DNA of 38,987 nucleotides from Gammaproteobacteria bacterium (GTDB lineage: Bacteria; Pseudomonadota; Gammaproteobacteria; JAKDMP01), in NCBI GenBank assembly GCA_027018875.1, contig JALUYA010000044.1, positions 1-38,987 of the forward strand. The letters run 5' to 3'. The first letter of the stretch is position 1, and each line of letters starts with the position of its first letter. This document shows positions 24,466 through 30,646 of this stretch, piece by piece. The notes beneath the pieces were generated by a model, which worked only from the letters and a program-made list of their open reading frames with translations, did not search any database and was not told where the DNA came from. A program made the position numbers and the translations under genes.

Positions 24466-24494
24466 CTATCCTGTAATGTGCCTTGGGCATCGCG

Positions 24495-26399
24495 ATGGAA
24501 GTTACCGAAAACATCACTCTGGCTCGCTTGCTGACGCATGCGCCGCCCCCGCTGGCCGCCCAATCACAAACCATTGTTGAGATCCTCCAGGGCCTCGATC
24601 TCCCCCAGGACTGGCGCCTCGCTGCGGCGGCTGCCCCCCTGCTGAACGCAGGGGTAATCAAACCGGAAACTCTTGCGACCATTGCCGGTGACGGGGTACG
24701 CGAGCTGGCCGCCCAAATCTCCGCCCTGCCGGAACCGAATCTGGCCGCGAGCGAGGCCCTGCATACGCAAGACCCGGCCCAGAAGGAAAACCTCCGGCGC
24801 CTGTTCCTCGCCCTGATCCACGACATCCGCATCGTCCCCCTGGTACTCGCCCGACCGCTTGCCCGGCTGATGCTTATCAAAGACCACCACGACGCCGAAT
24901 GCAAGGCGCTTGCCCATGAAGTCTTTCTACTCTATGCCCCGCTGGCCAACCGTCTGGGAATATGGCAACTTAAGTGGCAACTGGAGGATTTGGCCTTTCG
25001 CGCCACCGAACCCGAACGGTATGCCGAAATCGCCGCGGCGCTCACCGAGCGTCGCGCGGCCCGGGAGGCCCGGCTTGCGGCGACACGAAACCGCCTGGAA
25101 CAACTGCTCACCGAAGCGGGAATCCAGGCCCGCCTCAGCGGTCGCCCTAAGCATATTTACAGCATAAGCCGCAAGATGCAGCGCAAAGACGTTACCATTG
25201 AAGATCTGTACGACCTGCTGGGCCTGCGAATCATCGTTGCCGACATTCCTGCCTGCTACGCCGCCCTGGGAGTCGTTCATGGAAACTGGCGTCACATCCC
25301 CCACGAGTTCGATGATTACATCGCCGTGCCCAAGGGCAACTTTTACCGCTCGCTGCATACCGCCGTGATCGATGACGGCGGGCAGGCACTGGAGATTCAA
25401 ATCCGGACCGAGGCCATGCACCAGGAGTCCGAACTGGGTATCGCCGCTCACTGGCGCTACAAGGAAGGTATCACCCATGATCCGGCACTCGAGGAGCGCA
25501 TCGGCTGGCTCCGCCGCCTGTTGAGCGAGGACTCCGCAGATACTGCGGACCTGGCCCACGGCATCGCCACCGAACTCGGTGGTGAACGGGTTTACGCACT
25601 GACCCCACGCGGACGAATCATCGACCTGGCTCCCGGGGCAACCCCACTCGATTTCGCCTACGGGGTGCATACCCAATTAGGCCATCGCACCATCGGTGCC
25701 CGGGTGAACGGACTCATGGTGCCACTCACACGCCCCCTCTCCACCGGTGATACCGTCGAGATTCTCACCCGCACCGAACCCCGTCCCAGCCCCGATTGGC
25801 TGCGCCCCGAGGCCGGTTATGCCGTCACCCGACGGGCACGGCGCAAACTGCGTGCCTGGTTTCACCAAGTCTCGGCCCCGGCAATAAACGCACCGGCGAG
25901 CACTGCACCCAGAAAACCCGCTCCCGTACGGCGCTACCGCAAATCGGCCAACCAACTCGCCACTCCCATTGTCGCCGGAATGCCGGAGTTGGCGACCGAG
26001 TCGGCCCGCTGCTGCCAGCCCCGGCCCGGCGAACGTATTGCCGCCCTGCTGACCCGTAGCCGCGGAATTCGCATACATCGCTTCGATTGCGCCAGTTTTC
26101 GCATTAGCGCGGCGCGCACTCCCGACCAAGTACTGGAGGCACACTGGAGCGGCGAGGGAATCGACCTCAACCTATTACTCGAAGATCGCCCCGGTCTGAT
26201 TGCCGAATTGACTGCCTACCTGAGCCGGAACGGTGCCACCATCCGGCAGATGGCTGCCAACAGCCAGGCGGGGATAGCCCACCTGCGTCTAAGTCTCGCC
26301 GCTCCAGGACAGCGCGAAGTCGATACGCTGCTCGCCACGCTGCCCCATCTGCCCGGAGTGCGCGAAGTGCATTTCAGCTACGATGGCACACATGAATAA
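24495..26399 (+). CDS. relA: GTP pyrophosphokinase RelA, (p)ppGpp synthetase
   Basis: Ribosome-associated enzyme that makes (p)ppGpp from ATP and GDP/GTP on amino-acid starvation. It has 634 residues from the ATG at 24495 (a TTG four codons upstream is possible), shorter than E. coli RelA at 744. The N-terminal region lacks the HDxxED metal motif of the hydrolase. The synthetase domain has GRPKHIYSI (about 215), the acidic EFDD (about 271) typical of RelA rather than SpoT, and LEIQIRT (about 300). A TGS domain (about 365-430) and a C-terminal ACT domain (LLLEDRPGLIAEL) follow. The missing length is mostly N-terminal and in the central helical part. Monofunctional RelA implies a SpoT elsewhere. 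Confidence 0.93.
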   Translation: MEVTENITLARLLTHAPPPLAAQSQTIVEILQGLDLPQDWRLAAAAAPLLNAGVIKPETLATIAGDGVRELAAQISALPEPNLAASEALHTQDPAQKENLRRLFLALIHDIRIVPLVLARPLARLMLIKDHHDAECKALAHEVFLLYAPLANRLGIWQLKWQLEDLAFRATEPERYAEIAAALTERRAAREARLAATRNRLEQLLTEAGIQARLSGRPKHIYSISRKMQRKDVTIEDLYDLLGLRIIVADIPACYAALGVVHGNWRHIPHEFDDYIAVPKGNFYRSLHTAVIDDGGQALEIQIRTEAMHQESELGIAAHWRYKEGITHDPALEERIGWLRRLLSEDSADTADLAHGIATELGGERVYALTPRGRIIDLAPGATPLDFAYGVHTQLGHRTIGARVNGLMVPLTRPLSTGDTVEILTRTEPRPSPDWLRPEAGYAVTRRARRKLRAWFHQVSAPAINAPASTAPRKPAPVRRYRKSANQLATPIVAGMPELATESARCCQPRPGERIAALLTRSRGIRIHRFDCASFRISAARTPDQVLEAHWSGEGIDLNLLLEDRPGLIAELTAYLSRNGATIRQMAANSQAGIAHLRLSLAAPGQREVDTLLATLPHLPGVREVHFSYDGTHE

Positions 26400-27360
26400 A
26401 AAAACACCGGTTTTGCTTGCGGCAATTCTGACTCCTGCGGCCGCTGCCATCGCTCTGTCCTGGTGGGTGGCACAGCATTCTCTGGCGGGTCTCGAGTGGC
26501 ATACCCGCCTGGTGCCGGTCGTGGCGACCACCCCCCGCGGCCTGACGCATCTATTCCGGTTCTATAAATACTCCTGGCCACCGCAAGCGCCGGTTCCTCC
26601 TCTCGGGCTTAAAAATCTCCCCGCCGGGCTGGAGCATTTACCTATCACGGAGAAAAAAGCCCTCTTTTTACGCGTGATCCTGCCCCTGGCGATTGCCGCC
26701 AACAACCGCATCCGCCGGGAACGAAGCTACCTGCGCCGTATTCTTCCCCGCTTAAACGATGTCCCTGGTGACCATCTGCCGCAACGCGTACTACGCCTTG
26801 CCCGGAAATATCAAGTTAGTCAATCCCTGGGCACGGCCGCCGGACGGATCCGCCTGCTCCGCCGCTGCGACACGGTACCGCTCGGCCTTATCCTCGCCCA
26901 GGCCGCCAAGGAAAGCGGCTGGGGCACGTCGAAATTCGCTCGCGGTGCGAACAACTTATTTGGAATCTGGACCTGGAAACCGGAGGCCGGTGTAGTACCG
27001 CGTGGGCGCGCTGAAGGTGCGACCCATCTCGTGCGTGTTTACCCCGACTTGGCACACTCGGTAGAGGACTACCTCTACAACCTGAACGTCGGCTTTGCCT
27101 ATCGCCGGTTTCGCGCCCGTCGAGCGCTCATGCGGGCAACCGCCAAACCACTGGATCCGCTCATCCTGGCCGCCACCCTGGTGGCTTACTCCCAGCACCG
27201 TATCCTCTATACCAGCCGAGTGATCCAGCTGATCCGCAACAACAAACTCGAGCGGCTGGGCAAGCCGCGGCTCTCACCGACCCTGATGAGCCCGGGAGCG
27301 CACAACACCACGCTTCTCAGGGCAGCAGCGTTCGGCTCAAGTCCCAATAATCGCGGGTAA
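26392..27360 (+). CDS. Bax-like beta-N-acetylglucosaminidase domain protein
   Basis: Predicted envelope peptidoglycan hydrolase. It has 322 residues from the ATG at 26392, which gives a basic MNKK start. An ATG three codons earlier is also possible. A hydrophobic signal or anchor segment spans about 6-27. The C-terminal half carries the glucosaminidase (GH73-like) signature LAQAAKESGWGTSKFARGAN followed by NLFGIWTW, with the catalytic glutamate near residue 173. E. coli Bax (274 residues) has the same block. The gene starts inside relA (8 to 17 bases overlap), so it is probably cotranscribed and coupled. Its end overlaps the opposite-strand gene by 44 bases. Confidence 0.85.
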   Translation: MNKKTPVLLAAILTPAAAAIALSWWVAQHSLAGLEWHTRLVPVVATTPRGLTHLFRFYKYSWPPQAPVPPLGLKNLPAGLEHLPITEKKALFLRVILPLAIAANNRIRRERSYLRRILPRLNDVPGDHLPQRVLRLARKYQVSQSLGTAAGRIRLLRRCDTVPLGLILAQAAKESGWGTSKFARGANNLFGIWTWKPEAGVVPRGRAEGATHLVRVYPDLAHSVEDYLYNLNVGFAYRRFRARRALMRATAKPLDPLILAATLVAYSQHRILYTSRVIQLIRNNKLERLGKPRLSPTLMSPGAHNTTLLRAAAFGSSPNNRG

Positions 27361-28348
27361 GGATATTCACCGGCAGCATTTCGCCATAGCTCGACAAGGG
27401 TTCATCCGCCGCTCCCACCCGGGTCGGCAATGTACTCAGCGATTCCGCCACCGGGATTGCACTCGCGGCATCGGCATAACGCAACCGGGTATGCAGATAG
27501 GCAGCACGGCGGCGTACCATTTCATGACGTTTTTCCTCTCGACCCGCCGCGGCGATGAGTTCGCGCACCTTATGCTCCATGCGCAAACACTCCTCGGCAA
27601 GACCGAAATAGGCCTCCTCAACCGGCTTGCGTGCCGCACTCAGCGCCGCCTCGGCGATCTGATCCTCCCGATACAGCAGGTAGAAATGCTGGGCGAGAGC
27701 AATCAGCAGGGTATTGATAGCCCGCCGGGTATTACAGGACAATTCTCCACCCTGCGGGGCGGCAACCTCGAGCCTCATCTCCCGGCGCAGATTTCCGAGC
27801 CGCACATCGGCCTCCGTGAGGCGGCGCTCGGTCTCGATCAGGGCCGCATGGAGCATTCCCTGCTCCCCTTTGCGGAAAGGCCGCTCCCGCTCATGCAGCT
27901 CATACTGTAACCGCGCAATCTCCTTACGCAGTTCCCCAGCCTCGGCCTCGGCAGCCTGCAGCCCGGGATTAACCGGCGGCGCGACCCAGGACTCACTTAT
28001 GTATTTTTCGCGAAACTGCCGCGACAATACCTGCAGATCACGGTGGCACATCGACCAGATCGCCCGAAGACGAAAATATAAAATCGCATTCTGTCCCTTC
28101 TCCGGATCGGCCATAATGGCTTCGAGCGCCGCGATCCGCGCCTTGAGCCGATCCCGATCCGATCTCATCTGGGCCAGTTTCTCTGCGTCGCTGATCCCCG
28201 CTACCGCAGCCTCTTGCCGGACATGCTGCTCACGATCCCTACGCACTTCCGCCTCATGTGCGGACCAGTCCCGTTCCAGTGGCCCATCTTCCCGGTAACG
28301 CTTCATCTCCCGGCTACCGAAACCCAGGCGTTCCCACCATCTTGCCAT
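27317..28348 (-). CDS. Uncharacterised coiled-coil protein, 343 residues
   Basis: I do not recognise this family. The ATG at 28348 (MARWWERLGFGSREMKRY) is preceded by AAGGAGAG at ideal spacing, and the composition is that of the local coding DNA, so the gene is likely real. There is no signal peptide or membrane segment. Charged, heptad-like helical stretches run about residues 30-80 and 130-195, followed by a more globular helical part (about 205-290). A tryptophan/tyrosine-containing block (ILYFRLRAIWSMCHRDLQ) lies near 90-107. It stands alone: its 3' end overlaps the Bax-like gene tail to tail, and upstream is a 358-base gap. Confidence 0.75.
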   Translation of the reverse strand: MARWWERLGFGSREMKRYREDGPLERDWSAHEAEVRRDREQHVRQEAAVAGISDAEKLAQMRSDRDRLKARIAALEAIMADPEKGQNAILYFRLRAIWSMCHRDLQVLSRQFREKYISESWVAPPVNPGLQAAEAEAGELRKEIARLQYELHERERPFRKGEQGMLHAALIETERRLTEADVRLGNLRREMRLEVAAPQGGELSCNTRRAINTLLIALAQHFYLLYREDQIAEAALSAARKPVEEAYFGLAEECLRMEHKVRELIAAAGREEKRHEMVRRRAAYLHTRLRYADAASAIPVAESLSTLPTRVGAADEPLSSYGEMLPVNILTRDYWDLSRTLLP

Positions 28349-28706
28349 TCATCTCTCCTTGATGCCCAAGCTAGGAGCATCATGGCACGATCCGGCTTTT
28401 GTTGCTACTCTATGTCGTATTCACCCCCCTGGAATTACGCTCCGCCCACTCCCACCGGCGACGTAACCCGGGTTTCCTCGTGGCAATAATCCAGCTATTT
28501 TTCGGGTGGCGATTGGTGTAGGTGCGGAATAGAGCAGAATGGTGCCCCGCCGGAGCACCCGCCAATCGCAATAAACATCGGGAATTTACTTATGAATACT
28601 CATCAACATATCAAACCACGCGGCTGGAACAGATCCTGCCTCCAGCAGTCCGGGAAGTGCCAAGCTCAACATAAGTGCTACCGTGATATGCCAAACACCA
28701 TATTTC
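28349..28706. other. 358-base intergenic region with inverted repeats
   Basis: The region lies upstream of the coiled-coil gene and downstream of ppsR. It contains an 8-bp inverted repeat GCGATTGG/CCAATCGC (28509-28516 and 28562-28569). The enclosed segment begins with GTAGGTGCGG at 28518 and holds a second small repeat, GGTGC/GCACC. The GTAG opening followed by a GC-rich imperfect palindrome resembles degenerate REP-type extragenic repeats. No T-tract terminator is seen after ppsR. A minus-strand mini-ORF (28586-28672, 28 codons, hydrophobic) has no ribosome binding site. Confidence 0.5.
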
Positions 28707-29570
28707 TCACGGGAGGGCAGGGCTGAGCCCCGTCTGATAGAGGATGATTGCCGCGATCTCTTCAACCGATATGGACGTGCTGTCGAGCACGGTCACCCCA
28801 TTGGCCCGAAGCAGGGCTTGCGCCTTCTCAACCTCGCGGCGTACCCGCTGGGGATCGGCATAGCCACTGCCGGGGCGACGTTCACTGCGAATCCGCACCA
28901 AGCGGGCCGGATCGACCGTGAGTCCGAACAGCCGGTCGCGGTAGTCTTGCAGAATCCGGGGCAGGCTTTCGCGTCCGACATCGTCCTCATCCAGGGGGTA
29001 ATTGGCAACAAAAATCCCGTACTGCAAGGCCAAATATAGGGAGGTCGGCGTCTTGCCAACCCGCGAGAGTCCTACCAAAATCAGTTGCGCTTCATGGTAG
29101 CGCTCGGTGTTCAATCCGTCATCGGCAGCCAAGGCAAAGTTCACCGCATCGATACGGCGTAGATAGCCGGCCGAATCGCGCATTCCGTGCGCACGCCCCA
29201 ACGCATGGCTGGATGCGGTCCCAAGCGCCTCTTCCAATGGGTGCATAAAGGCGGAGAAAAAATCCAGGGTCAGCGCCTGGGCGGAGTCCACGATCTGGCG
29301 CAATCGCTCATCGACCAAACTGGAGAAGACAATCGGCGTCAAGCCGCAGCGCTCGGCCTCGGCATCAATGCGCCGTACCGCCTCTTGGGCCTTCTCCTCG
29401 GAATTAACGAACGGGATGATGACATAGCCAAAACTCAGTGTCTCGAACTGTGAGAGGAGGCTATGGCCCAGGGTCTCGACCGTGACCCCGGTACCGTCGG
29501 AAACAAAGAAGACCGACCGTGGAATATCCGGTTGTACCGGTGTCAACATTGGTTCAATGAAGGAAGACAT
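28707..29570 (-). CDS. ppsR: PEP synthase regulatory protein (bifunctional kinase/phosphorylase, DUF299)
   Basis: The family reversibly inactivates phosphoenolpyruvate synthase by ADP-dependent phosphorylation of a threonine and reactivates it by phosphorolysis, controlling gluconeogenesis. It has 287 residues from the ATG at 29570; a TTG six codons upstream is less likely. The N-terminus SVFFVSDGTGVTVETLGHSL is the family signature. The P-loop-like GLSRVGKTPTSLYLA is near residue 168, and NYPL follows. The target gene ppsA normally lies next to or divergent from it but is not in this window. Overall length and motifs are normal. Confidence 0.93.
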   Translation of the reverse strand: MSSFIEPMLTPVQPDIPRSVFFVSDGTGVTVETLGHSLLSQFETLSFGYVIIPFVNSEEKAQEAVRRIDAEAERCGLTPIVFSSLVDERLRQIVDSAQALTLDFFSAFMHPLEEALGTASSHALGRAHGMRDSAGYLRRIDAVNFALAADDGLNTERYHEAQLILVGLSRVGKTPTSLYLALQYGIFVANYPLDEDDVGRESLPRILQDYRDRLFGLTVDPARLVRIRSERRPGSGYADPQRVRREVEKAQALLRANGVTVLDSTSISVEEIAAIILYQTGLSPALP

Positions 29571-29935
29571 ATTTCTCGCACCGAACAAAGATAATTAGAA
29601 AATCCGAGCAACTTCAGGCATACGGCAGGCTCCAGGCCAGTCGCCGCTGCCCGGCCTCCCGGGGCCGGTACGGGAGGCATTCCACAACCCCGGCCATACT
29701 CGCCCTGGGGCCCGGTAATCTCGATTTCCGTATGATGTTGTGGCGGGCTGGCGATGCCATAGCCGCGAGCGGGTACCGTTCCCGCCCACGGCAGGTGCGG
29801 AGCCGGGAAGATGCTCGCGCGACGCGACGCCTTGGCCTCAAAGCCGGGATCGAACATTCGCGGGGTAATCCCTTCACGCGAATGCAAGATGAACTGGAAT
29901 TTTTGGTATAGCACTGCAGGGAGCCGGAGCCGCCA
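29571..29935. other. 365-base divergent region with stem-loops
   Basis: No gene is supported between ppsR (leftward) and the PAP2 gene (rightward). Three perfect inverted repeats are visible. The first is GCCTCCCG/CGGGAGGC (29654-29661 and 29671-29678). The second is GCGGG/CCCGC (29769-29773 and 29781-29785). The third is CATTCGCG/CGCGAATG (29855-29862 and 29877-29884). None is followed by a T-tract. TATAGC at 29917-29922 is a weak -10 candidate for the PAP2 gene. The minus-strand ORF 29543-29914 has no family resemblance. Confidence 0.5.
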
Positions 29936-30646
29936 TTGTTTTCACCGAATTTTTCACCAAATTGCATATTGTCGCATAGCCTAGCCGACTGGCGGGACCT
30001 ACCCGCCCGTGGTTCCCGTATTTCGGCCTCCAGGGAAATTCTGCTGCAACTGGGCGCCGGACTGTGCTGTGCCGCGGCATACGTGTGGATCGACCATCCA
30101 CTCGCCCAGGCCGTCAATCGTCTTCTGCCCGCACGACGTATCGCCTCGACCCTGCCCGATCTACTCGGATCCTTCGTCGTCGCCATTTCTCTGCTGGGCC
30201 TTGGTGTTACCTGGATTGCCTATCGTCATGCCCTCACGGGACTTGCCCGCCTGGGGCCGTTACTCAGTCTTGGTGCCCCGCTCGCCTTTGCCACGAAGCT
30301 CCTGGCCAAATGGACTTTTGGGCGCATTGCCATCCGGGTGTACCTGTATCACCCTGGCTTCGACGGCTTCCACTGGTTCGCGGGGCAAGGCCCGTTCAGG
30401 GGCTTTCCATCCGGCCACATGTTGGTCGCGGCAACCCTGGTGGTGCTGGTGGTCGCGGTCTGGCCCCGGCTGCGGACGCTCGGCGTAGCGGTGCTGCTCG
30501 CACTCGCACTCACCCTCATCCTGACCTCTTATCACTTTCTCGCCGACATTATCGCCGGTTGGGCGCTTGGCCACGCGCTTGCCTGGCTCATGCTGACCGC
30601 AGACGCCCGCATACGTCCGGGAGCAACCGTGCCCACACCCCCCTGA
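29936..30646 (+). CDS. PAP2-family membrane phosphatase
   Basis: Integral membrane phosphatase related to PgpB/BacA-replacing lipid phosphatases. The substrate (undecaprenyl pyrophosphate, phosphatidylglycerophosphate or lipid A phosphate) cannot be told from sequence. It has 236 residues from a TTG at 29936, supported by GGAG six bases upstream. Hydrophobic segments lie near 38-60, 78-98, 105-125, 165-183 and 188-225. The active-site motifs are a degenerate first motif (KWTFGRIAIR), FPSGH with its catalytic histidine (about 160) and SYHFLAD with the second histidine (about 200). Its end overlaps hutG, on the other strand, by 59 bases. Confidence 0.85.
   Translation: MFSPNFSPNCILSHSLADWRDLPARGSRISASREILLQLGAGLCCAAAYVWIDHPLAQAVNRLLPARRIASTLPDLLGSFVVAISLLGLGVTWIAYRHALTGLARLGPLLSLGAPLAFATKLLAKWTFGRIAIRVYLYHPGFDGFHWFAGQGPFRGFPSGHMLVAATLVVLVVAVWPRLRTLGVAVLLALALTLILTSYHFLADIIAGWALGHALAWLMLTADARIRPGATVPTPP

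Follow-up and report, generated by a model that had tools for sequence, protein, structure and literature searches.

Genes at the locus

The window, by which we mean the whole stretch of DNA analysed (38,987 nt of the gammaproteobacterial contig JALUYA010000044.1), carries on its minus strand a gene for a 343-residue protein, here called the window gene. The features of this region are as follows.

24483..26399, plus strand: RelA/SpoT homologue (RSH), which in the nearest relative is convergent with the family gene
26383..27360, plus strand: Bax-like glucosaminidase (Pfam Glucosaminidase, NCBIfam), convergent with the window gene and overlapping it by 44 nt
27317..28348, minus strand: window gene (343 codons in the list of open reading frames), a predicted helical protein of an undescribed family
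27449..27742, minus strand: second conserved block, codons 203-300, with R209, N212, Q220, G249, C254 and L285
27743..27985, minus strand: variable, predicted coiled-coil-like hairpin, codons 122-202, mostly absent from the nearest relative (L006/L041)
27986..28177, minus strand: first conserved block, codons 58-121, a predicted helix with E76, G85, L94, R95 and W98
28349..28706, minus strand: 358-nt gap between ppsR and the window gene, with no convincing remnant of the DUF1249 gene that lies upstream in 20/20 other homologues
28355..28360, minus strand: Shine-Dalgarno sequence AAGGAG, with a 6-nt spacer to the ATG of the window gene
28707..29588, minus strand: ppsR, PEP synthase regulatory kinase/phosphorylase (NF049928, 354.1 bits, cut-off 350), next upstream of the window gene

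The window gene is a real gene, as its open reading frame, Shine-Dalgarno sequence, coding composition and homologues under purifying selection attest. An earlier reading of the letters alone (the sequence-only reading) had already delimited the frame at 27317-28348 and 343 residues; it gave no strand, which is minus. The strong ribosome binding site that it reported is AAGGAG at 28360-28355, 6 nt before the ATG (28348-28346), and the normal coding character that it described agrees with a GC content by codon position (0.695/0.459/0.669) resembling that of the RSH, bax and ppsR genes alongside; third-position GC is lower in rpoB (0.448) and rpoC (0.497). The source genome (2.21 Mb in 54 contigs, 95% complete) contains a single match to the gene. 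The cytoplasmic location that had been proposed is plausible, given a 19-residue hydropathy scan that revealed no transmembrane-like stretch and peaked at a mean of 0.77 (residues 210-228).

The convergent 3′ side

The 44-base antisense overlap noted earlier is exact: the window gene and the Bax-like gene share 27317-27360, tail to tail. 'Bax-like' is a fair name for this neighbour, which lies above the cut-off of Pfam Glucosaminidase (7.7e-15) and matches the NCBIfam model 'protein bax' at 1.5e-28 and 99.8 bits, under its cut-off of 193. The further suggestion that the two transcripts interfere finds no support beyond the overlap itself, and we consider it highly improbable that the overlap is a regulatory device. 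Although the overlap exists and no terminator-like site was found within its 44 nt, it is not conserved: in the only other genome of the order examined (G001), the RSH gene is convergent with the family gene across a 44-nt gap and there is no bax gene at this place. Moreover, other members of the family also have convergent 3′ ends that lie very close together, 2 nt apart in L011 and 4 nt in L007, or overlap, by 23 nt in L032. Promoter and terminator scans gave 2 and 4 sites, respectively, versus 1.1 and 3.5 in shuffles, and no Rfam model reached its gathering score within 26000-30000. Of the 17 complete homologues, 11 have a Prc gene as the convergent gene downstream, five an RND pump gene and one RSH (Pfam confirmed Prc and RND on one protein each). 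Among the 18 stretches compared, a Bax-like gene adjoins the family gene only in the window.

An undescribed protein family

The window protein belongs to an undescribed family, and no known family was found for it. The sequence-only reading had recognised none, and database searches upheld this: all Pfam and NCBIfam matches fell below the curated cut-offs, PHROGs matches were weak (best 0.036), PADLOC gave none and the PDB sequences a single chance match (0.29), nothing among these being credible. The best match of the family profile to PDB sequences (0.018) was to coiled coils. Profile searching thus placed the protein firmly in no characterised family; homologues do exist.

The best subthreshold match was PspB TIGR02976 at residues 44-81 (19.3 bits against a cut-off of 51.7; E 0.001), with PspB PF06667 reaching 14 of 25.6 bits. 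An N-terminal membrane helix is a defining feature of PspB. Unlike PspB, the window protein has no membrane helix (maximum hydropathy mean 0.77), and only 2/18 family members show the signal; with the score under its cut-off as well, a PspB identity was rejected. When the 18 members were scanned singly, coiled-coil models were matched by some of them: SMC_prok_B (TIGR02168) by 9/18 at E <= 0.1 (best 3.7e-07), Rad50 by six (7.2e-07), Phage_scaffold by five (2.3e-06), APG6_N by five (4.3e-06) and CC149 by six (3.2e-05). We judged these matches generic, the models differing from member to member and having been evaluated without cut-offs or positions. The PADLOC JetC/LmuB models matched some members along long coiled-coil stretches (best 1.1e-05).

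The family is real, conserved and undescribed, and is confined to a few little-known bacterial lineages. In 369 genomes drawn evenly from the larger class, a four-row profile matched 13 and an 18-row profile 17. G040, G122, G208, G248, G343 and G333 were excluded, since their matches span no more than 55-100 positions of the profile, with E between 1e-3 and 1e-5 (the G333 row also contains four stops), so that the family was retained in 12/369 genomes from eight families (G000, G001, G018, G041, G119, G167, G181, G234, G274, G287, G330 and G367). The homologue of G167 lies in pieces at contig ends. Both genomes examined from the window's order, its own (G000) and G001, are carriers. Two peptide patterns located at least 12 loci in a named genome collection, all in metagenome-assembled genomes titled Gammaproteobacteria, Natronospirales, Chromatiales, Janthinobacterium lividum or uncultured proteobacterium; one peptide pattern found no relatives in viral contigs. 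The 12 loci from the collection and eight more from the class search gave 20 distinct non-window homologues, identical contigs being counted once (L006 = L041, L008 = L040, L014 = L032); they include near relatives (L034/L035, L016/L017, L040/L009) and are not 20 independent events.

The homologues are under purifying selection, as seen in three close pairs whose proteins are 91.6, 93.4 and 96.2% identical and whose differences fall mostly at third positions (dN/dS of 0.040/0.316, 0.035/0.427 and 0.019/0.370 by NG86; 0.046/0.219, 0.047/0.223 and 0.022/0.217 by YN00). This measure cannot be applied to the window, whose nearest relative is too distant; in the two distant pairs that contain it, NG86 gives for the window gene a dN of 0.50 and a dS of 2.3, near saturation. 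The family appears to descend mostly vertically.

Predicted structure and conserved residues

Structure prediction with AlphaFold2 (11 sequences) gave an essentially all-helical model of the window protein (pLDDT 79, pTM 0.57), in which a conserved helical core (residues 58-121 and 203-300) is predicted alongside a variable hairpin (about 122-202). The hairpin helices (128-153 and 160-194) make up the stretch missing from the in-frame, 261-aa homologue of G001, whose core is still confidently predicted (pTM 0.70, 11 sequences); this natural hairpin-less homologue could serve directly as a minimal construct for structural studies. On average, the most frequent residue of a column has a share of 0.53 in each of the two core blocks, compared with 0.38 across the hairpin (122-202), 0.31 at the N-terminus (1-57) and 0.43 at the C-terminus (301-343).

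The protein had earlier been described as a two-block coiled coil, a claim that holds in part. The model is helical throughout, and hydrophobicity at the helical period exceeds that of shuffles over residues 60-120 (22/1000 reach the value), over 128-153 (2) and over the entire stretch 122-202 (15); it does not do so over 24-60 (673), 160-194 (757) or 205-227 (89). The coiled-coil-like part is the variable hairpin, and the conserved part the helical core. The aromatic patch that had looked conserved, YFRLRAIW, is so, with W98 present in 17/18 and Y91 in 14/18 aligned members. Seven columns are invariant in the 18 sequences (E76, R95, R209, N212, Q220, G249 and L285), five of them polar or charged, and C254 is nearly invariant.

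Neither the whole model nor the core matched a PDB structure in Foldseek at E <= 0.001, and the best BFVD match to the whole model was at 0.027. With VIA-align 2, residues 122-200 filled the list for the whole model with generic coiled coils (best Z for the hairpin 9.9, rmsd 2.1 over 74), and the best match of the core (Z 6.0, rmsd 5.1 over 112) is commonplace for helical bundles. We do not claim a new fold, because a missing match proves none and each model was built from only 11 sequences.

Linkage to DUF1249 and ppsR

Inspection of the genes around the homologues, which the sequence-only reading had proposed, gave the main result of this study: the family gene is linked to DUF1249 and ppsR. 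Profiles of the neighbours place DUF1249 upstream of the family gene, in the same orientation, in 20/20 non-window homologues (17 complete and three cut by contig ends, L013, L015 and L042). They place ppsR likewise in 17/20 (14/17 complete, 3/3 cut), the stretch examined containing no ppsR in L011, L033 and L036 (3/20). Pfam PF06853 was confirmed on the three DUF1249 proteins tested. DUF1249 lies less than 190 nt from the family gene or overlaps it in 13/17 complete homologues; the overlap is 14 nt in L016, L017 and L032, which suggests that the two genes are translationally coupled there. The distance is 1.5-1.7 kb in L007 and L011, with another ORF between, and about 1.7 kb in L015. The intervening ORF of L007 (4490-5371) and L011 (2123-3055) encodes about 300 aa and is lipoprotein-like by eye; a similar ORF stands just after the family gene in L012 (7112-8050). 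In 10/20 homologues (seven complete, three contig-cut), ppsR was accompanied by a divergently oriented PEP synthase-like gene.

The pair also exists without the family gene, which is absent (best profile E 1.2) from 12 loci of other genomes of the class (L062-L073), chosen by eye for the closeness of ppsR and DUF1249 among the matches listed. The linked genes give a first clue to what the family might do: one controls phosphoenolpyruvate synthase, and the function of DUF1249 is uncharacterised.

Across the class, ppsR (PF03618) occurs in 164/369 genomes, comprising 12/12 carriers of the family versus 152/357 non-carriers (Fisher P 5e-5, uncorrected for kinship among carriers from eight families). 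DUF1249 occurs in 211/369, comprising 11/12 carriers versus 200/357 non-carriers (P 0.011, likewise uncorrected for kinship); its match in carrier G234 is weak (4.7e-4). The ppsR gene is not always adjacent, lying on another contig in G274 and about 10 kb off in G287. Tree distances of the family correlate with those of DUF1249 (r 0.52, 17 shared loci) and ppsR (r 0.59, 15 loci), values reached by 0/999 permutations, and those of DUF1249 with ppsR at 0.85 (14 loci); as common descent alone would produce such correlations, we did not use them as evidence of interaction. Long DUF1249 branches (1.3-2.0) were observed in G001 and in the f119 lineage (L002 2383-2850, L034 5249-5770, L038 5381-5797).

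The window as an exception

DUF1249 was not found in the window's genome (95% complete) by a profile whose control finds that of E. coli. The DUF1249 protein of the nearest relative finds nothing there either, which by itself shows nothing. Within the 358-nt gap, the best local score against the nearest DUF1249 was reached by 28/300 shuffles, and the scores of two other DUF1249 queries by 201/300 and 96/300; tblastn gave an 8-residue DUF1249 match on the right strand (E 0.067). A remnant of DUF1249 in the gap was not accepted as convincing. Together with the long branches described above, this absence looks as if constraint on DUF1249 had relaxed before the gene was lost.

Beyond ppsR, a 123-aa ORF (29543-29914, minus strand) is the decayed remnant of a ferredoxin-NADP-reductase-like gene (37% identity over 99 aa, E 6e-14). 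It has no Pfam match of its own, and in G001 the corresponding position holds an intact reductase gene (L041:8257-8994, FAD_binding_6 and NAD_binding_1); another partial relative lies on contig C47. The window's genome also has two PEP synthase-like genes on contig C15 (6586-8976 and 26188-28521), each sharing 54% identity with the PEP synthase-like gene next to ppsR in L032. The reductase flank of ppsR has thus decayed, and a gene has apparently disappeared from its other flank, with the window gene intact. Since it is intact despite the apparent loss of DUF1249, its function would not depend wholly on DUF1249, and a strict complex of the two proteins would not be general.

Possible roles of the family protein

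We tentatively propose that the family protein works together with the PpsR and DUF1249 proteins as a non-enzymatic adaptor in the cytoplasm. In some gammaproteobacterial lineages its gene would be the last of a ppsR - DUF1249 - family gene cluster, and the helical core would bind a partner, for which the DUF1249 protein is the first candidate and PpsR, which switches PEP synthase, the second. The hairpin may be a spacer of variable length or a dimer arm. In the window's lineage, where DUF1249 seems to have been lost, the core would need another partner, the simplest candidate being PpsR. Against such an adaptor, no set of invariant residues indicates a partner or catalysis, and gene linkage is not proof of contact.

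About as likely is an independent role, for instance as an envelope- or division-associated scaffold whose gene adjoins ppsR and DUF1249 through a stable ancestral gene order. Envelope genes are frequent among the 3′ neighbours (Prc protease 11/17, RND pump 5/17, the Bax-like gene in the window), the family gene is retained in the window's genome, where DUF1249 was not found, and tree distances correlate with those of DUF1249 (0.52) and ppsR (0.59) as an inherited order would give. The 3′ neighbours, however, are convergent and vary with lineage, whereas the 5′ neighbours are constant, and ppsR is kept by 12/12 carriers even where it is on a different contig (G274) or at a distance of about 10 kb (G287). 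We think it unlikely that the protein is an enzyme or a nucleic-acid-binding protein of helical fold with a site made up of E76, R95, R209, N212, Q220 and C254, the last of these nearly invariant. Five of the seven invariant columns are indeed polar or charged, but these residues may be core salt bridges, no metal or nucleotide motif was seen by eye, and no match to a family or fold with such a function was found.

The adaptor reading can be taken a step further, to a version that we put forward as speculation with rather little chance of being right: PpsR and DUF1249 might form a module controlling entry into gluconeogenesis, of which the family protein would be a third component, so far unrecognised. 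As a helical adaptor it would couple PpsR, and DUF1249 where present, to PEP synthase or a stress signal, and some lineages could dispense with DUF1249. We take PA4970 to be the DUF1249 protein of P. aeruginosa. One study reports a 7-fold induction of PA4970, whose neighbours are an NTP pyrophosphohydrolase gene and cpdA, when RpoH is raised (PMC9866376). In the literature searched, no paper uses the name DUF1249, no title listed for YqiB in Escherichia coli concerns its function, and no paper was found on ppsR with a hypothetical protein or DUF1249 domain, or on a PEP synthase regulatory protein operon in Gammaproteobacteria. DUF1249 was found in 211/369 genomes of the class, with E. coli among the controls. 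A lineage-restricted gene that, the window excepted, is always linked to DUF1249 in the loci seen, and is accompanied by ppsR, gives a handle on the role of DUF1249 and on whether PpsR has further partners. If the linkage reflects only ancestral gene order, this is an ordinary orphan family.

Comparison with known systems

SMC/Rad50-like proteins have ATP-binding head domains flanking a coiled coil. The likeness of the family to SMC/Rad50-type and other coiled-coil models (TIGR02168, PRK03918, JetC/LmuB) consists in the matches of some relatives; none of these models is matched by the window protein, which at 343 aa is much shorter and, at E <= 1, matches no ATPase domain of Pfam or NCBIfam. 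DUF1249 (PF06853), whose E. coli member is called YqiB, is similar in that its function is likewise uncharacterised, but the two are non-homologous as far as tested, the window protein having no PF06853 match (gathering score 25 bits). PpsR (PF03618, NF049928) also differs, in that the window protein does not match PF03618, and is alike in sharing the ppsR-DUF1249-family gene cluster; in the window no intervening DUF1249 was found in this cluster and ppsR is present, 358 nt upstream on the minus strand.
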